In this document: piece by piece, positions 20,594 to 59,687 of the stretch
Numbering within the stretch: position 1 is the first letter of the stretch
How the letters are laid out: every line of letters starts with the position of its first letter
Source of the DNA: Opitutales bacterium
GTDB taxonomy: Bacteria; Verrucomicrobiota; Verrucomicrobiia; Opitutales; Oceanipulchritudinaceae
Direction of reading: 5' to 3'
Assembly: GCA_020831585.1 (NCBI GenBank)
Contig: JAFIGE010000001.1
Coordinates: forward strand, 62,001 to 126,000
Length of the DNA: 64,000 nt
Notes under the pieces: generated by a model
Told to the model about the DNA's origin: nothing
The model's database searches: none
The model's input: only the letters and a program-made list of their open reading frames with translations
Position numbers and translations under genes: made by a program

Positions 20594-20905
20594 ATGTTTA
20601 TGTCCCGCAAAAAAAAATTCCTTGAGATCGTCAGGAACGAGTCGGAACTCCTTAAAGCCCATGGTGTCAAGGAAATAGGAATTTTTGGTTCTGTGAGCAG
20701 AGAAGAAGATATTGGTCGGAGTGATTACGATGTTCTGATCGTATTCGAGGAGGGAAAGAAGAGCTTCCGAAATTTTGTCGCAATCTCCGATCTGCTGGAG
20801 GAAAAATTGGGCGCGCCGGTCGACCTTGTAACTCGGGAAGGTCTAAGCCCGCATATAGGACCGCATATTTTGAAAGAAGCGGAGTATGTCCCGGTTGCCC
20901 CTTGA
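20594..20905 (+). CDS. mntA: MntA-like minimal nucleotidyltransferase antitoxin
   Basis: 103 residues (an alternative ATG is two codons downstream). Nucleotidyltransferase motif GIFGSVSREEDIGRSDYDVLIVF (G-S then D-x-D) at about 28-50 and a third acid in PVDLVTREGL (about 75-84). MntA proteins neutralise the HepT toxin by adding AMP to it. The next gene overlaps by 20 bases and encodes that toxin type. It begins 45 bases after vapC on the same strand. Confidence 0.9.
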   Translation: MFMSRKKKFLEIVRNESELLKAHGVKEIGIFGSVSREEDIGRSDYDVLIVFEEGKKSFRNFVAISDLLEEKLGAPVDLVTREGLSPHIGPHILKEAEYVPVAP

Positions 20906-28593: not shown

Positions 28594-28648
28594 GTGGAGG
28601 ACTGGGGGCTGCGATTAACCATTTCTGACGGTCTCCGTGTTTTTACGT

Positions 28649-28755
28649 GGCAGCAGAATGCAGCCACTCCTTGCCTTGCCGAATCGTTGAAGGCGGCGAT
28701 CAATGTAATTCAATCAAGCGGTTCAAATTCCAAGGAGGGGCTGCATTCTGCTGCC
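28649..28755. repeat. Long imperfect palindrome (25-bp arms) between rmlB and an epimerase gene
   Basis: The left arm 28649-28673 and right arm 28731-28755 are inverted copies with 24 of 25 positions matching (core gcagcagaatgcagcc). The 57-base loop and the right flank hold further short inverted matches (ttgccgaatc at about 28676 and gattcggcaa at about 28768). The 419-bp gap 28372-28790 otherwise has no credible gene: an open frame at 28393-28782 runs through the palindrome and has no recognisable domain. A mobile palindromic element (REP- or MITE-like) is possible. Confidence 0.65.
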
Positions 28756-28790
28756 CTCCAGGCAGTGATTCGGCAACAGTAAATAAATCT

Positions 28791-29870
28791 ATGAAAACAG
28801 CCCTCACCGGAGCCAGTGGCTTTCTCGGCACCCGCCTTCTTGAAATGTGGGGTTTGACCGGGCGTGTCGACTTTGTGCCGATCCTGCGTGGCTACGGCAG
28901 TGCGGCACCGGTCGGGCGGCTGGCCTTGCCGTCGCGCGTCGCTGATGTGTGTGATGCGGAGGCGCTGGTGCCCGCGTTGGAGGGGTGCGATGCCATCGTG
29001 CATGCGGCCCTCGGCGATCCCGCCCAGATCGTTGCCATGGCGGAGGCGGTCTGCGCGGCGGCCGAGCGCACCGGTATCCGGCGCATTGTTAACCTCAGTT
29101 CGGCGGTTGCCCTCGGGATGGTCCCTCCGCCGGGCAGTGGCGATACGACGCCGGGCCTGACGAATCGCCCCCTTGACTACTGCTCAGCTAAGGGGATCGC
29201 TGAAGCGGTGTTTTCAAAGTATGCGGCGAAATCCGGTGCCTCGGTGATTCAGTTGCGTCCATTTACGATCTACGGCCCGCGCTCGCGACTCGTCGGACGT
29301 ATCCTCGCCGCGATGGAATCCGGCGAGGCCTGGTTGTTGAACGGAGGTTCCGGTGTGTGCAATGCGGTGTATGTGGACAATGTTATCCACGGCATAGAGC
29401 GCGCGCTCGCCGCGCCGGAGACGGTCAGCGGGGTCTTTCACCTGAACGATGCGGAGTCGTTGACGTGGGCGGAGGTTTATCGGGAGTTGGGCAACGCGGC
29501 AGGTCTTCCGGCGGGACCCTGGCCGGAGCCGCCCTCGCGTCCAGCGGCTCCCCGTCGACTTTCCCTGCCGGAGCGGGTGAAGATGCATACTTCGAAGCCA
29601 CTGCCACAAGCCGTCTTCCGCCATGTTCCGGAGCGGGCCAAACGGATCGTGAAGGGCATGATCGCGGGCTGGTCGGAGCCGGTTTATGCCAACTCGCGTG
29701 CGCTCCCCGCGAACGGGGTGGGCGCCGTGGATTCGGAATTGTATCAGCTCCAAAGTGGCGTCTGGAGATTTTCCACGAAGGGTGCGGCGGATAAACTTGG
29801 GTATGCGCCGCAAGTCCCGTTTGCGGAGGGGATTCGGCGGACGGTTGGGTGGTATCGCGTATTCGGATGA
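28791..29870 (+). CDS. NAD-dependent epimerase/dehydratase
   Basis: 359 residues from ATG 28791 (MKTALTGASGFLGTRLLEMW). Extended SDR with the NAD loop TGASGFLG (about 6-13), DAIVHAALGDP, NLSSAVALG and the catalytic DYCSAKGIAEAVF (about 126-138; Tyr-x-x-x-Lys intact). It is longer than the minimal family, with an extra segment at about 240-320 before the conserved end LGYAPQVPFAEGIRRTVGWY. It likely acts on a sugar nucleotide. The stop overlaps the GT4 start (ATGA). A truncated second copy of its 3' end occurs at 33319-33405. Confidence 0.88.
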   Translation: MKTALTGASGFLGTRLLEMWGLTGRVDFVPILRGYGSAAPVGRLALPSRVADVCDAEALVPALEGCDAIVHAALGDPAQIVAMAEAVCAAAERTGIRRIVNLSSAVALGMVPPPGSGDTTPGLTNRPLDYCSAKGIAEAVFSKYAAKSGASVIQLRPFTIYGPRSRLVGRILAAMESGEAWLLNGGSGVCNAVYVDNVIHGIERALAAPETVSGVFHLNDAESLTWAEVYRELGNAAGLPAGPWPEPPSRPAAPRRLSLPERVKMHTSKPLPQAVFRHVPERAKRIVKGMIAGWSEPVYANSRALPANGVGAVDSELYQLQSGVWRFSTKGAADKLGYAPQVPFAEGIRRTVGWYRVFG

Positions 29871-30982
29871 GACGTCTGCTCTTTGTCAGCCGAAACCTCG
29901 CCTGCCCGGATTTTCACGGGGGTTGCGTTTATCCTTACCGGGTTTTGGAAGCGCTCTCCCGCCATGGGTTTGCTGTTGAATATCTGTGGATTCCGGAAAA
30001 GGTATCGCAGCGTCCTTTCCGCCTGCCGTTTCGGCCTGCCTTCTGTCGCCGCGTGTTCGTGGCAGGGGCATTTCAGATTGGGCCAACCTATTGGCAAAAC
30101 CCGTTGCAGGGGAGGGATTTGAAACGAGCCCTTAACGGGTGGATACAATCTCCCGGCGATGTCGTCGTTTTGGACTATCTCTGGGACGCGGAGCTTCTGC
30201 AGGGACTACCCGCTTCGACCTGGATACTGACTCACGAGCGGATGTACCGGCGGAGCGAGAGCTATCAAGCCGCCGGGGTGGTCCCGGATTTCAAGGTGCT
30301 CGGCGAGGCCGAGGAAAGGCGTCTGCTCGAAGCTGCGAAGGGGCTAATTGCGATCCAGGAAGAGGATGCCTCGTGGATGCGGCAGAGCTTTCCGGATAAA
30401 CCAGTGGTGGTGGTGCCGCCACCATTTTCCGTTTCCGCCGTTGAGGAAAACAACAACCGGGGCGACACTGTCCTCTTTATCGGTGGCAGAACGGCGCACA
30501 ATCGCGGTGCCTTGGAGTGGCTTGTCGGCGAGGTGTGGCCGAGGGTGATTGCCCGCAAGCCAGATGCGCGTTTGCGTGTCTATGGCACCGTGGATATCAG
30601 CGGCCTCGGAAACGCCAAGGGCCTCGATTTTCGCGGGGCGGTGGAAGACTTGAGCAGGGCCTATGGCGAAAACGCGATCGCGGTGGTGCCCGTGCGTTTC
30701 GGATCGGGGCTCAAACTCAAATTGCTGGAGGCCTTTGCCCATGCCTTACCCGTGGTCGCCACATCGGTGGGGGCGGAGGGATTTGCGGAGGTAAAAGCGG
30801 GAACTATCTGCCCGGTTTCCGACGATCCTGAGGCCTACGCACAGAACATTCTCCGGCTATTTAATGAGCCTGGCTTTCAGGATGCCGTGCGCCAGCGGCA
30901 GTTTGAGTGGCTCAAGGTAAATGCGGATCCCGCGCTTCTTGGCCGACGCTTTGCTGATGCCATCGCGAGTTACCGAACTTAA
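29867..30982 (+). CDS. Glycosyltransferase family 4 (GT-B)
   Basis: 371 residues from the ATG at 29867, in ATGA overlap with the epimerase gene. N-terminal MRRLLFVSRNLACPDFHGGCVYPYRVLEAL and C-terminal VLFIGGRTAHNRGALEWLV (about 204-222), VVPVRFGSGLKLKLLEAFAHALPVVATSVGAEGF (about 275-308) define the Glyco_trans_1_4-type enzymes with a shortened E-x7-E region. It has a close, frameshifted paralogue at 33402. Likely transfers one sugar during repeat-unit assembly. Confidence 0.9.
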   Translation: MRRLLFVSRNLACPDFHGGCVYPYRVLEALSRHGFAVEYLWIPEKVSQRPFRLPFRPAFCRRVFVAGAFQIGPTYWQNPLQGRDLKRALNGWIQSPGDVVVLDYLWDAELLQGLPASTWILTHERMYRRSESYQAAGVVPDFKVLGEAEERRLLEAAKGLIAIQEEDASWMRQSFPDKPVVVVPPPFSVSAVEENNNRGDTVLFIGGRTAHNRGALEWLVGEVWPRVIARKPDARLRVYGTVDISGLGNAKGLDFRGAVEDLSRAYGENAIAVVPVRFGSGLKLKLLEAFAHALPVVATSVGAEGFAEVKAGTICPVSDDPEAYAQNILRLFNEPGFQDAVRQRQFEWLKVNADPALLGRRFADAIASYRT

Positions 30983-30990
30983 AACTTTTT

Positions 30991-31851
30991 ATGATGAACC
31001 AACGTCCTTTCTTTCTTTTTGTTCACGTGCCGAAAACCGGGGGTGAGAGTTTTCGCCGCGCCCTAGTGCGCTGTCTCGGCCACCGTTGTGTCTTTGATTA
31101 CGGGATGTTTGATAACGTCCGTTACCCGGCGGATCAGGTGGGAATCGCGATCAACCAGCGTCCGGACCACGATTGTCTTTGTGCGCATCACCTTACCTTC
31201 GATCTTCCGTATGATCTGCCAGGCCGCCCGTTTGTCGCCTTCACTTTGCTCCGCGATCCGGTGGCGCGGGTCCTTTCGTGGTTTTTCGCGGTGCGCAACC
31301 ACACCAAGCTCGCGCCGCGTTTTCGCGAGATGACAGTTAGCGACTTTGTTCGGGAAGAGGTCCGGCAGGGTTCCCATTGGTTTTTGGCAAATGGTCAGCT
31401 GCGCCATTTGATGGGGGAAGTCAGCGAGCAAAGTCTGCGGCGCTTTGAGGAAATCATCCGACGGGATAACGTGCTGGCCATCCCGCTCACCAAGATTGCC
31501 CTGGCCGCATGTTTGCTCGAACACCGTTTTCCGGATCAATTTTCGGATTTGTCCAGCAGGCATACCAATATATCCAAGAAGGATAGCGCCCTGGATCCGG
31601 AGGCGGAGGCATTGTTGCGGGAGCTGGTTTCCTTTGATCTGAAAGCGCTCGCCTTGGCGGAGGCGATTTTTGCGGAAAAGGTCGAGGTCGCCCGGAAGGC
31701 GGAGGGCTTTAATCCCGAGGCCGCGCTGGAGGATTTTCAGCGTCGTGCCGCCGCACGCAATGTCGCGGCGAACTCCGGCCTCACCCGCTTGCGCAAGCTC
31801 ATGGCACGGGCGCTCAGTTCTGCCGCCCATCGGATAGATGTTGATTATTGA
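30991..31851 (+). CDS. Sulfotransferase family protein
   Basis: 286 residues. The PAPS 5'-phosphosulfate loop is FVHVPKTGGESFRRAL (about 10-25) and the 3'-phosphate region is FTLLRDPVARVLSWF (about 82-96). These match the sulfotransferase family 2 (Sulfotransfer_2) pattern of carbohydrate sulfotransferases. It would transfer sulfate from PAPS to a glycan hydroxyl, implying a sulfated polysaccharide. It starts 8 bases after the GT4 gene. The ISKra4-like element begins 23 bases after its stop codon. Confidence 0.87.
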   Translation: MMNQRPFFLFVHVPKTGGESFRRALVRCLGHRCVFDYGMFDNVRYPADQVGIAINQRPDHDCLCAHHLTFDLPYDLPGRPFVAFTLLRDPVARVLSWFFAVRNHTKLAPRFREMTVSDFVREEVRQGSHWFLANGQLRHLMGEVSEQSLRRFEEIIRRDNVLAIPLTKIALAACLLEHRFPDQFSDLSSRHTNISKKDSALDPEAEALLRELVSFDLKALALAEAIFAEKVEVARKAEGFNPEAALEDFQRRAAARNVAANSGLTRLRKLMARALSSAAHRIDVDY

Positions 31852-31874: not shown

Positions 31875-33250
31875 GGTGTAATCACGAGGTTTGTCAGCCC
31901 GGACTAAATTAGACTCGGCCTCACTGCACATCGTACGGCCTTTCTGTTTTAAGGTTGGGATGGCCCCTATGCAAAAAGATGAAAGTGCGCTCTACGAATG
32001 GTTGAACAAGCGCCCATCCCTGCGCTCCCAACTCCAGCACTTGCGCCGGTTGGAAGAAGACCGCGAAGACCTGAATCAAGCGGCCATCGAGCCCTCCACG
32101 CGCGAAATCGTCCGCGCCATTGGACGCGATTGCTTTGAGCAGGCCCTTCAGCAGCGCAAGACCGCGGCCTTCGAGGCGCAGAGCAAACCGGGCGATCGTC
32201 GGCACGGTAAAAAAACTGAACTTCACGAGTCTTTTCGGGGATATCTCGCTTGTGGAGCGTTTGCTGCGCCGCAGCAGCTCGACGGTGCGGCCGCTGGCCC
32301 TGCTACTGCAACGCATGGCGGTCGACTTCGCCGCCGAGGGAGCATTCGAGGGGGCGAGCAAACGATTGCTCAGTCATCACGCCGTGAGCCTCTCGCCCGG
32401 ATGCGTGCGCAAGATAACCCTGAAGCATGCCGGGGCCATGGGCGCATCCGAGACCCCTTCGGGCACGCGGGGAGACCTCCCCGCAGAGGGGGCCCGAGGC
32501 CCTTGTCGCAGAGATAGATGGAAGCATGCTCCCGATCGTCGAAACAGGCATCCGAGGCAAGGGGCGCAAACGCCGGCGCTGCCGCTGGAAGGAGTTCCGC
32601 TTGCGCGCGGCACGACGCCGCGGCGAGGCACGCACGCACTACGGAGTCAGTGCCGGCAAAGTTCGACGAGGCCGGGTTCACTCTCGCGCAGATGGCTGCC
32701 CGCGCGGGCTGGGCCTTGCACACGAAGCTGCAATGTGTGGCCGACGGGGCGTAATGGATACAGCGGCAATGGCAGGGCAACTTTGGCACACGGGCACGCT
32801 TTCTCCTCGATCTCTACCACCTGTGCGAATACCTGGCCGCAGCCAAGACGGCCCATACCCATGGCCGCTGGCTCGACGTTCAGAAATCACGCCTGAAGCG
32901 CAACCGCCATGACCTCGTGCTCAAAAGCCTGCGCGCCTTTGCCGAACCGGCGGATCTTCCCGAAAAAGAAGCCCCCGTGCGCGCGGCCATACGCTACCTG
33001 TTCAACCACGCCCATTGCCTCGACTATGCAGGGGCTCTCGCCGACGAGCTGCCTCTGGGATCCGGACTCATTGAGAGCGGCCATCGACATGTCCTGCAAA
33101 AGCGCCTGAAGATCGCCGGTGCATGGTGGCTCTGGAACAACGCCCGGTCCATGGCCCACCTTCGAGTCCTCAGAGCAAACCAAGATGAGGATGCCTACTG
33201 GAAATCCATCTGGCACAAGCACGCTCCATGACAAACTTCGTGATTACACC
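31875..33250 (+). mobile_element. Degraded ISKra4-like insertion element
   Basis: About 1.38 kb bounded by matching inverted ends: left ggtgtaatcacgaggtttgtc (31875-31895) and right gacaaacttcgtgattacacc (33230-33250), which are reverse complements apart from one mismatch. Inside is a disrupted transposase. No target-site duplication is obvious. It lies between the sulfotransferase gene and a truncated epimerase, so its insertion or a later recombination probably deleted part of that epimerase. Confidence 0.8.
31960..33231 (+). pseudogene. ISKra4-family-like transposase, frameshifted
   Basis: Starting at ATG 31960, recognisable transposase pieces appear in successive frames: an N-terminal helix region, KLNFTSLFGDISLVERLL near 32210, LVAEIDGSMLPIVETGI near 32505, AGFTLAQMAARAGWALHTKLQCVADGA ending at an in-frame TAA (32752-32754), then WIQRQWQGNFGTRARFLLDLYHLCEYL to the end HKHAP. 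At least three frameshifts plus one stop break it. The CVADGA...W-I...LDLYH block is typical of ISKra4-group DDE transposases. Not functional as it stands. Confidence 0.82.
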
Positions 33251-33318
33251 CGACGCCGTCGGGCGTGAGTTATTTGACTTGCAGGGAGGGTGATACATGG
33301 TGTTTAGGCTGCGGGCAT

Positions 33319-33405
33319 GCGAAAGACATTTTCGGTTACGCACCGTCAGTTCCTTTTGCTGAGAGCGTTCGGCGGACAATCGCCTGGTATCAAACTTTCG
33401 GATGA
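33319..33405 (+). pseudogene. 3' fragment of a second NAD-dependent epimerase gene
   Basis: From 33331 the frame reads FGYAPSVPFAESVRRTIAWYQTFG followed by TGA, against LGYAPQVPFAEGIRRTVGWYRVFG at the end of the intact epimerase at 28791-29870. The TGA overlaps the ATG of the following GT4 gene exactly as in the intact copy. The fragment's upstream part is lost, replaced by the ISKra4-like element. This shows that the epimerase/GT4 pair was duplicated. Confidence 0.88.
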
Positions 33406-34572
33406 AGCGAATCCTCTTTATCAGCCGGAACCTTGCCTGTCCGAATTACCATGGCGGATGCGTGTATCCTTACCGGTTTCTTGAGGCAATGGCGGCTGCA
33501 GGCGTGCCCATCCACTATCTTTGGTTGCCGGATTCCTTGCCCAACCGCCCTTTTCGCCTGCCCTTTCGCCCCATCTTTGCGGAAAAAGTTTCCGTGCTGG
33601 GAGCTTTGTCGCAAGGTTCTTTTTTTTGTGAAGATTCCGTTCTGTAGAGTGGACCGCAGTGCAGCGATTCGTTCCATCCTTCGCTCTAGCCCGGCAGAAA
33701 TCGTGCTCGACTTCCTCTGGGATGCAGCGTTGCTTCGCGACCTGCCTATGCGAAAGTGGATTCTCACTCATGAATTGATTCACCAGCGAGCACGCAGCTA
33801 TCGGGACGCTGGGGTGACGCCCGATTTTACTGTGCTTGATGAAGCTAGGGAAGTGGAGTTGTTGGAAAACGCCGATGGGTTAATCGCAATCCAAGATGAA
33901 GATGCGGCGTGGATGCGGGGCCATTTTCCAACTAAGCAGATTGTGGTGCTCCCGCCGCCTTGCGCGCGGAGAAAATTGCCCCCACCCCCCGCCGCACCGC
34001 CTTCCGTGCTCTTTATCGGCGGCAAAACAGCGCATAACCGCTATGGACTCGAATGGCTGGCGGGCGACGTATGGCCCCACGTGCTCAGCCGCCTGCCCGA
34101 CGCCCGCCTTCGGATCTACGGAACGGTGCCGTGTGGAGGCATAGCTTCCTCCGGGAGCATCGAGGTCAAAGGTCCCGTTGCCGAAGTCTCCAGTGCTTAC
34201 GCGGAAAACCAGGTCGCGGCGGTGCCGTTCCGGTTTGGTTCCGGGCTCAAAATCAAGCTGCTCGAAGCAATGAGCATTGGTCTGCCCGCAGTGGCTACGC
34301 CAATAGGTGCCCAAGGATTCGCCGACCTCCGCACGGGACTGGTGTGTCCCGTCTATGAGGATGCTCCTTCGTTTTCAGATGCGCTCGTTCGATCATTAAC
34401 GGACACTCCCTTCCGCAAAGAAATCGTCGCTAAACAAGATGCGTGGTTAAAAAAAAATGACCGACCCGGTGCATTTGGCCACGCGGTTTCGCAAAGCTAT
34501 AAAGGGTTAGACTCATGCCACTCGCATTTTGCATCCTTGCCCACAAAAATCCGAGGCAGTTGCGCGGCTTGA
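33402..34572 (+). pseudogene. Glycosyltransferase family 4 paralogue with a T8 frameshift
   Basis: The first frame (33402-33647) gives MKRILFISRNLACPNYHGGCVYPYRFLEA and then stops after 81 residues. From a run of eight Ts at 33620-33627 the next frame continues the protein without loss: FCRVDRSAAIRSILRSSPAEIVLDFLWDAALL, VLFIGGKTAHNRYGLEWLA and VAAVPFRFGSGLKIKLLEAMSIGLP. Removing one T aligns the whole with the intact GT4 at 29867. It may be a pseudogene, a phase-variable gene, a case of transcriptional slippage, or a sequencing error. The end overlaps the next gene by about 58 bases. Confidence 0.8.
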
Positions 34573-35432
34573 TCGAGCAACTGAATACGGGGCGGTGTGG
34601 CATTTTCGTCCATTACGACAAGCACTCACCCGCTTCCGAACATGCGGAACTCCAGGCTCTCGCTCGGGAACTTCCACGACTCACCCTGATCCGACCGCGA
34701 AAGGTCAACTGGGGACGCTGGAGCCAAATGCAGGCCCAGCTCGATATGATGGAGACAGCGCTCGCAACAGATTTATCGTGGACCCACCTTCTGACCATTT
34801 CAGGACAGGATTTTCCGCTCCAGACGGTCGATTTCATGGAACAGGTGCTGAACGAGCGCCCGGCGAATTCAATGATCGAATGGTTTGATCCCTTTGCGCC
34901 CGGTCGTTGGAAAAATGCCCGCGAGCGCATCATGCGCTGGCACTTTGATAGTGATGTGTTGCATCGGATTTTGCGCATCCCAGGGGTCGGGCGTAGAATC
35001 GGGACCGCGCTGGGCTGGCAAAACCGCATTCCCTTTTTCCCGGGAATCCGCCGGAGAATTCCGGAATTCTTCCGATGGTTTGGCGGCTCCAACCACTACA
35101 ATCTATCGCGAGACGCGGTCGAGTATGTGCTGCATCATGACAATTCAAAGCGTATTGCGAGAAGGCTTCGGCGCACCGGTTCGCCCGATGAGAGCTTCGT
35201 CCAGTCGGTTTTACTCAACAGCCCTCTGGTCCCGAGCCTTCAAAATGATGACCGCCGGGCCATCATTTGGGATGCTCCCGATAATCCCAGCCCGCGCCTA
35301 CTCTCAATGACAGACTGGCCCCTGCTGGAGGAGGCCCGCTCAGCGGGTAAATTGTTTGCCCGGAAGTTTGATTCCGCCGTTGATGCGCAGGTGCTTGAGA
35401 AATTGTCACAGCGTCTTTCCGAAAAACCATGA
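34515..35432 (+). CDS. Core-2/I-branching enzyme-like glycosyltransferase (GT14)
   Basis: 305 residues. N-terminal MPLAFCILAHKNPRQLRGLIEQL, FVHYDKHS (about 31-38), WGRWSQMQAQLDMMETAL (about 66-83), HLLTISGQDFPLQ (about 94-106) and the mid-domain FFRWFGGSNHYNLSRDAVEYVL (about 184-205) follow the Branch-domain family. These enzymes add beta-1,6-GlcNAc (animal core-2/I branching) or xylose; bacterial members sit in polysaccharide loci. It likely makes a branch point. ATGA overlap with the downstream GT8. Confidence 0.87.
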   Translation: MPLAFCILAHKNPRQLRGLIEQLNTGRCGIFVHYDKHSPASEHAELQALARELPRLTLIRPRKVNWGRWSQMQAQLDMMETALATDLSWTHLLTISGQDFPLQTVDFMEQVLNERPANSMIEWFDPFAPGRWKNARERIMRWHFDSDVLHRILRIPGVGRRIGTALGWQNRIPFFPGIRRRIPEFFRWFGGSNHYNLSRDAVEYVLHHDNSKRIARRLRRTGSPDESFVQSVLLNSPLVPSLQNDDRRAIIWDAPDNPSPRLLSMTDWPLLEEARSAGKLFARKFDSAVDAQVLEKLSQRLSEKP

Positions 35433-57461: not shown

Positions 57462-59687
57462 ATGTCAAAATTGAAAAATCACCCACCCTCCGCGAAGTCG
57501 CCCCGTCCCGGGCAAGCGGATCCCTTTAGCGGCGGATCCTTCGACTTCGGGATTATCCTCAACTACCTTTACGTGATCAAGGAGAGGTGGTGGATCGGGC
57601 TCCTTGCCGGGCTCGCCGTGGCCAGCTTCTATGCCCATCGCTCCCTCCAGGAAATCCCGCTCTACCATTCCTCGGTCCACATTCTTTTTGAGCCCCGCGC
57701 GGACCGCGTAATCGATATCCAGCAAGTCGTTGAGACCACTGCGGCCGGTCAGGCGGAGAACCTGTTGGACTATCAGATGCGCATCATTCGCAGTCGGGCA
57801 TTTCGCGCCAACGTGGCCGCCAGTTTCAGCGAAGATGAGGTTGCCCAGATTATCGAGCCTTACCGCAACGCCGATGGTGACGCCCCGGGCCTCGAGGGGG
57901 TGCTGGGGGGTTCCGTTTTTTTTGGCCGCGATAATGCGGGCATCATCGTCAACGCGCATCATCGCGATCCCCATGCGGCCGCCCTGATCGTGAACCGGTA
58001 TGCGGAGCGGTACATCGCGAGTGTTGTCACGCGGACAGGCGTGGGCAATGCCGCCGCTATTGAGTTTCTGGAACAGCAGGCGGCGGAACTGCGTGGACGG
58101 ATTGAGGAGAGCGACCGGGCGCTGGTGGATTACCGCCGCCGCTACAACCTTGTCTCTCTCGAAGATAACCAGAATCTCATCGTCTCGCGCTTGCAGGCCC
58201 TCAATGCCGCCCATACCGCCGCGCGCATCCGCATCCTCGCCCTCGATGCCGATATCGCCATGGTCGAGGGGGCGAACGAACGCCAGGAGTCGCTCATTGA
58301 AGTGCCCTCCCTTGTGCGCTTTGGATCTGTGCCGGGGCTGCTTGAGCGCCTCAATGAAGCCCGCGCAGAGAGAAGCCGGTTGGATCTGCGCTACCTTCGC
58401 ATGCACCCGCTTATGGTGCAAAACGAGCGCCTCATCGCGGTTTACGAAGGGCGTTTGGCCGAGGAGTTGGACCGCGGCGTGCGCGACCTTCACCAGCGGC
58501 GGGCTCACCTCCAGGAGGAAATCGACAAACTCACGACCCAGCTCGCCGTGGCGGAAAACGAAGCCCTCCTCCTCGACTCCATGGCCATTGATTACAACGT
58601 TCTGCGGCGCAAACTTGAGAGCGACCGCCGCACTTTCGACGACATCGTCACCCGCCTCAATGAGACGAATGTGGCCAGCCAGTTGGATAACACCAACGTC
58701 CGCGTGCTCGACTCGGCGGAACCCGCGTGGATGCCCTTTACGCCCGATCGAAACAAGATTTTCCTCCTCACCGCTGTTCTCTTTCTTATGGGCTTTTGCG
58801 GAGTGCCGATCGCCGTGGAGTTTCTGGATAACCGCTTGAAATCCGCTGTCGATGTGGAGCAGTTCCTCGGGAAGCCTCTCCTCGCCGATATTCAGGCCGT
58901 CCGGGGTAAAAAAGATGAGGAGAGAGGACGACTGGTGCTGGATGAAAAAGATGACGCCATTGTCGAAGTCTACCGGGCCGTCTATGCGGGGCTCAAAATG
59001 CATGGCGTGGATCACTTCCCGAAAACCATCGTCGTCACGAGCGCCTTGCCCAAGGAGGGAAAGTCCTTTTTCGTCTCCAACTTCGCCGGGGCCTGCGCCC
59101 TCCACGGCCATCGGGTGCTGATTATCGACGCGGACTTCCGGCGTCCCTCTCAAGCGAAAAACTTCGGCATTTCCGGAAAGGTGGGCACTCTTTCATGGAT
59201 GGAGAGCGGCGACGAGCTTGCCGCCGAAGAGAACGCCCCCCTTCCCCCAGGCCTCGGCATTGTCCAAATCGCCCCTCTCCTTCACCTGCTCCCATCCGGC
59301 GGATCGACAAAGAAGTCGACGGAGATTCTCGAACACCCCAGGTTCGAAAACCTCCTGAAAGTGGCCAGCCGCGCATACGACTTCATTCTTATCGATACGC
59401 CCCCGGTCTCACTCTTCCCGGATGCCCTTTTCGCGGCCCGCCTCGCCGAAGAGAGTATTTTCATCTGCAAGCACAACGGAGTCAGCCGCCACCGTGTGAA
59501 ACAGTGCATCACCACCCTCGAAAACACCCAGACCCCGGTCTCCGGAGTGGTCATTAACAACCGGACCAGCTCGCAAGGCCTGCGCCCGGGCTACGGTGGA
59601 TCGCCTTACGGATACACCTACCGCTACGGGCCCAAGGAATACAAAACCTACGCCAAATACTACGAGGAGTCCGCCAAATCTTCCTGA
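57462..59687 (+). CDS. wzc: Polysaccharide co-polymerase/tyrosine autokinase (Wzc-like)
   Basis: 741 residues from ATG 57462 (TTG 57450 is an alternative). Two membrane spans at about 45-62 and 432-455 flank a periplasmic coiled-coil region. The cytoplasmic kinase has Walker A SALPKEGKS (about 526-534), the tyrosine-kinase-type LIIDADFRRPS (about 552-562) and Walker B FILIDTPPVSLFP (about 641-653). The tail (YGGSPYGYTYRYG...YKTYAKYYEES) holds about nine tyrosines, the expected autophosphorylation cluster. It would control chain length with Wza. The next gene follows after four bases. Confidence 0.94.
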   Translation: MSKLKNHPPSAKSPRPGQADPFSGGSFDFGIILNYLYVIKERWWIGLLAGLAVASFYAHRSLQEIPLYHSSVHILFEPRADRVIDIQQVVETTAAGQAENLLDYQMRIIRSRAFRANVAASFSEDEVAQIIEPYRNADGDAPGLEGVLGGSVFFGRDNAGIIVNAHHRDPHAAALIVNRYAERYIASVVTRTGVGNAAAIEFLEQQAAELRGRIEESDRALVDYRRRYNLVSLEDNQNLIVSRLQALNAAHTAARIRILALDADIAMVEGANERQESLIEVPSLVRFGSVPGLLERLNEARAERSRLDLRYLRMHPLMVQNERLIAVYEGRLAEELDRGVRDLHQRRAHLQEEIDKLTTQLAVAENEALLLDSMAIDYNVLRRKLESDRRTFDDIVTRLNETNVASQLDNTNVRVLDSAEPAWMPFTPDRNKIFLLTAVLFLMGFCGVPIAVEFLDNRLKSAVDVEQFLGKPLLADIQAVRGKKDEERGRLVLDEKDDAIVEVYRAVYAGLKMHGVDHFPKTIVVTSALPKEGKSFFVSNFAGACALHGHRVLIIDADFRRPSQAKNFGISGKVGTLSWMESGDELAAEENAPLPPGLGIVQIAPLLHLLPSGGSTKKSTEILEHPRFENLLKVASRAYDFILIDTPPVSLFPDALFAARLAEESIFICKHNGVSRHRVKQCITTLENTQTPVSGVVINNRTSSQGLRPGYGGSPYGYTYRYGPKEYKTYAKYYEESAKSS

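Follow-up and report, generated by a model that had tools for sequence, protein, structure and literature searches.

Within the window, by which we mean the whole 64,000-nucleotide stretch of Opitutales DNA analysed here, a GT4-type glycosyltransferase gene of a polysaccharide cluster changes reading frame twice, at a run of eight Ts and again at a run of nine As, and in our reading this gene was once functional and has probably lost its function recently through replication slippage. Ordinary gene breakage of recent date is the most likely interpretation, not a switch. The features concerned are as follows.

28647-29870, forward strand: intact NAD-dependent epimerase/dehydratase-like gene.
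29867-30982, forward strand: intact, diverged paralogue of the glycosyltransferase gene (about 50% identical), directly 3' of the intact epimerase.
31875-33250, forward strand: decayed insertion sequence of ISKra4/ISMich2 type, recognised from its inverted repeats (31875-31896 and 33229-33250), its relatives and a match to NF033572.
33251-33405, forward strand: what is left of a second epimerase copy, a 3' stub into which 4 nt have been inserted and whose TGA and the ATG of the glycosyltransferase gene overlap.
33402-34510, forward strand: gene for a GT4-type glycosyltransferase, split over three frames (33402 to T8, T8 to A9, A9 to TAG), recognised from tblastn frames, PF13692 and a collinear intact orthologue.
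33620-33627, forward strand: T8 run, first frame change, one base above what the frame of the orthologue allows.
33645-33647, forward strand: premature TAG closing an ORF of 81 residues.
34449-34457, forward strand: A9 run, second frame change, one base longer than in the orthologue.
34508-34510, forward strand: natural stop, reached in frame 2 only; the orthologue stops at the same place before its next gene.
34515-35432, forward strand: intact gene of the Core-2/I-branching enzyme family, syntenic with its counterpart beside the orthologue.

The first frame change lies near codon 73, in the run TTTTTTTT, which is bordered by C on its 5' side and G on its 3' side. The frame that begins at the ATG at 33402 (ORF 33402-33647) is closed shortly after it, while the next frame, offset by one base, crosses the run without a stop and codes for the remainder of the protein, its middle piece matching Pfam PF13692 (Glyco_trans_1_4), the nucleotide-sugar binding domain expected in the C-terminal part of a GT4-type enzyme, at 71.5 bits against a curated cut-off of 27. 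When the orthologue described below is used as a tblastn query, it aligns to 33402-33638 in one frame (81% identity) and to 33541-34467 in the next (62%), an alignment that places the break within the true coding frame and not there by chance. The second change lies near codon 349, at AAAAAAAAA, where homology shifts another base on, to frame 2; the tail read in that frame is KKMTDPVHLATRFRKAIKG, ending at the natural TAG four bases 5' of the next ATG. Only 2 of 5000 shuffles aligned to the C-terminus of the orthologue as well as this tail, and none of 5000 to that of the paralogue, whereas for the frame-1 tail the counts were 5000 of 5000 and 1450 of 5000, respectively. The two runs are the longest homopolymers of the gene, each is one base over the frame of the orthologue, and the idea that the two shifts might cancel each other is ruled out, as they act in the same direction and end in the third frame.

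An earlier note on this DNA had placed the T8 run and the 81-residue ORF correctly, and its observation that similarity to the paralogue at 29867 picks up again after the run, in a frame shifted by one base, also stands, but not its description of the gene as otherwise intact, given the second break. Nor does removal of a single T yield an end-to-end protein as it had claimed: undoing the T8 shift alone lets the frame overrun the natural stop and continue to 34572, 58 bases inside the next gene. The A9 shift alters just some 19 residues at the C-terminus, a change that the protein might tolerate, in which case T8 would be the sole inactivating change.

The nearest relative of the gene, and the only close orthologue found, is in a Puniceicoccaceae metagenome-assembled genome (L035), where it is intact, collinear and 69% identical. 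The gene order there (oxidoreductase, epimerase, glycosyltransferase, branching enzyme, GT8) is that of the window save for extra genes in between, so that a disrupted frame stands opposite an intact syntenic orthologue, as expected of a recent pseudogene. The frame change is not conserved, since the L035 gene and the paralogue are each read in a single frame. The L035 codons at the two sites are TCC TTC TTT (T8) and TTG GAG CGA (A9), with neither run present, and the T8 run is not conserved in the paralogue either; both runs probably arose through substitutions in the lineage of the window.

Against L035, pN/pS is 0.267 for the glycosyltransferase gene and 0.268, 0.262, 0.314 and 0.238 for four neighbours, all rough ratios given that synonymous sites are saturated, and when rates are compared with the paralogue as outgroup, the relative-rate test counts 28 unique changes against 19 (chi2 1.72, not significant) and gives no sign of acceleration. 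These two results rule out a long-decayed pseudogene, and because the ratio falls within the range of the neighbours and the rate test is not significant, the loss is taken to be recent, the pattern of substitutions indicating that selection kept the gene until then. The intact syntenic orthologue, the normal constraint and the absence of any stop beyond those due to the frame changes thus support the recent change suggested in the earlier note. That no further stops have accumulated is also a point against gene loss, since the same would be seen in a reversible state or with a consensus error confined to this locus.

The surroundings of the gene suggest how it may have become dispensable. In L035 the stop of the epimerase overlaps the start of the glycosyltransferase gene; in the window it is the diverged paralogue whose start is overlapped by the intact epimerase instead, and this paralogue is followed on its 3' side by a gene of the sulfotransferase family (30991-31851), the insertion sequence and then the epimerase stub. 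The transposase of the insertion sequence contains TAA where relatives hold a sense codon and changes frame near 32480-32494 and 32640-32662; its match to NF033572 at 32914-33231 (E 1.7e-22) stays under the curated full-length cut-off. This stretch is decaying, because the lesions of the insertion sequence and of the stub are not homopolymer miscalls. The rest of the cluster consists of full-length genes, and plasmid DNA searched with the glycosyltransferase gene and with the insertion sequence gave no match.

We infer from this layout that a further epimerase gene and a diverged glycosyltransferase gene arrived as a block beside the older pair, an event that would have left the insertion sequence and the stub of one epimerase copy upstream. 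The older glycosyltransferase would thereby have been deprived of the upstream gene to which its translation was coupled, and perhaps of its role, and selection on it would then have been relaxed. Replication slippage would have added one base to each of the hypermutable T8 and A9 runs, presumably leaving the cell with no functional product of this gene.

The insertion sequence has features of its own. An A-run of seven to nine bases is kept at the two-ORF junction of ISKra4/ISMich2-type transposases of this bacterial order, being A7 in the window (32209-32215) and longer in three relatives (L133:744-752, L135:745-753 and L136:743-750). To join the ORFs, the frame must move by -1 in L133 and L136 but by +1 in L135 and the window, a mixture that might be easier to explain by transcriptional slippage than by ribosomal frameshifting that is strictly -1. 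The A7 run was considered as a further decay indel and set aside, as relatives show a frame transition at the same run and the ISMich2 group has been described with one (PMC3942029). Further copies of the inverted repeat without a matching transposase occur at G000:C221:3642-3915 (L049, L050) and also in contigs C190, C196, C3 and C121; the pair in C221, spaced by about 270 bp, may constitute a short non-autonomous element. Elsewhere in the window, a nucleotidyltransferase-like ORF (MSRKKKFLEIV...) has an in-frame A9 run (20609-20617) immediately behind its start codon, and this run is a candidate slippage site.

Among the alternatives to recent loss, the one that survives best, although we regard it as unlikely, is a consensus or assembly error, with a true genome one base shorter at both runs and the gene intact. 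In its favour, each change consists of one additional base in a homopolymer, the gene has the appearance of full constraint and the assembly is a draft (5.28 Mb in 262 contigs). The frames of homopolymers were checked by a codon-usage method in 1.03 Mb of the same genome (about a fifth), using runs of at least 8 bases with coding sequence on both sides: all 18 classifiable in-gene runs elsewhere keep the frame, and the two runs that do change it are both ordinary gene junctions, by which pervasive homopolymer error is rejected. The check is blunt at the site itself, as the classifier has too little power in this compositionally atypical cluster and left the T8 run at 33620 unclassified. In the same window, T8 at 57916 and A9 at 20609 are read through in frame, and the neighbouring lesions in the insertion sequence and the stub are real and not in homopolymers. 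An error confined to the two runs is therefore unlikely, and the extra bases would be real.

Decidedly less probable is phase variation, which had been proposed in the earlier note and in which T8 would be a reversible on/off switch seen in its off state. A homopolymer early in a surface-glycan gene is a typical site for contingency loci, much as in the slipped-strand phase-variable surface-glycan genes of Campylobacter and Neisseria (for example PMC3025981), and frameshifts at homopolymers can outnumber point mutations about 1000-fold (PMC2831843). Unlike the runs in those genes, the run here is of A/T type, short at eight Ts, and not conserved in the paralogue or in the only close orthologue, and the on state would require the independent A9 run, also off by one, to change as well. 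Within the 1.03 Mb sampled, no further gene broken at a homopolymer came to light. Were the run a switch after all, it would be the sole contingency locus that this analysis met in the lineage.

The slippage on U8 that had also been suggested fares worse still. In this view some full-length protein would be produced from the stored sequence, either by slippage during transcription or by frameshifting of the ribosome, at U8 (and A9). Slippage on A/T runs of about nine bases is known in bacteria and in insertion sequence genes (PMC1088944); in the relatives of the insertion sequence from this order, A8-A9 runs are retained where the two ORFs join. The resemblance to dnaX of Thermus and to insertion sequence genes is limited to the A or T run at the frame change, as here the loss of one base would be needed at two runs, neither of which is conserved, whereas homopolymers in transcripts of E. 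coli and Buchnera mostly gain bases and rarely lose them (PMC5574713). RNA folding around the runs was no better than that of shuffles (z -0.12 and -0.75 around T8, -0.51 around A9), so hairpin-stimulated slippage is rejected, and terminator-like matches near the runs were within chance. We accordingly consider this explanation very improbable, and slighter yet the prospect that, with both runs real, a small amount of full-length glycosyltransferase made by slippage at U8 and A9 would produce cell-to-cell glycan variation without DNA change.

Recent gene loss, the reading that we prefer, has its closest parallel in the GeneTack study, in which non-clustered frame transitions are treated as indel mutations or sequencing errors (PMC3711429). 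As in its singleton and pseudogene classes, the frame transition is found in a single lineage, most of the product is truncated and a recoding signal is lacking; unlike in those classes, there are two changes in one gene, both lineage specific. The gene offers a small but clear case of the way in which a superseded gene may be lost from a polysaccharide cluster, its longest homopolymers failing first.
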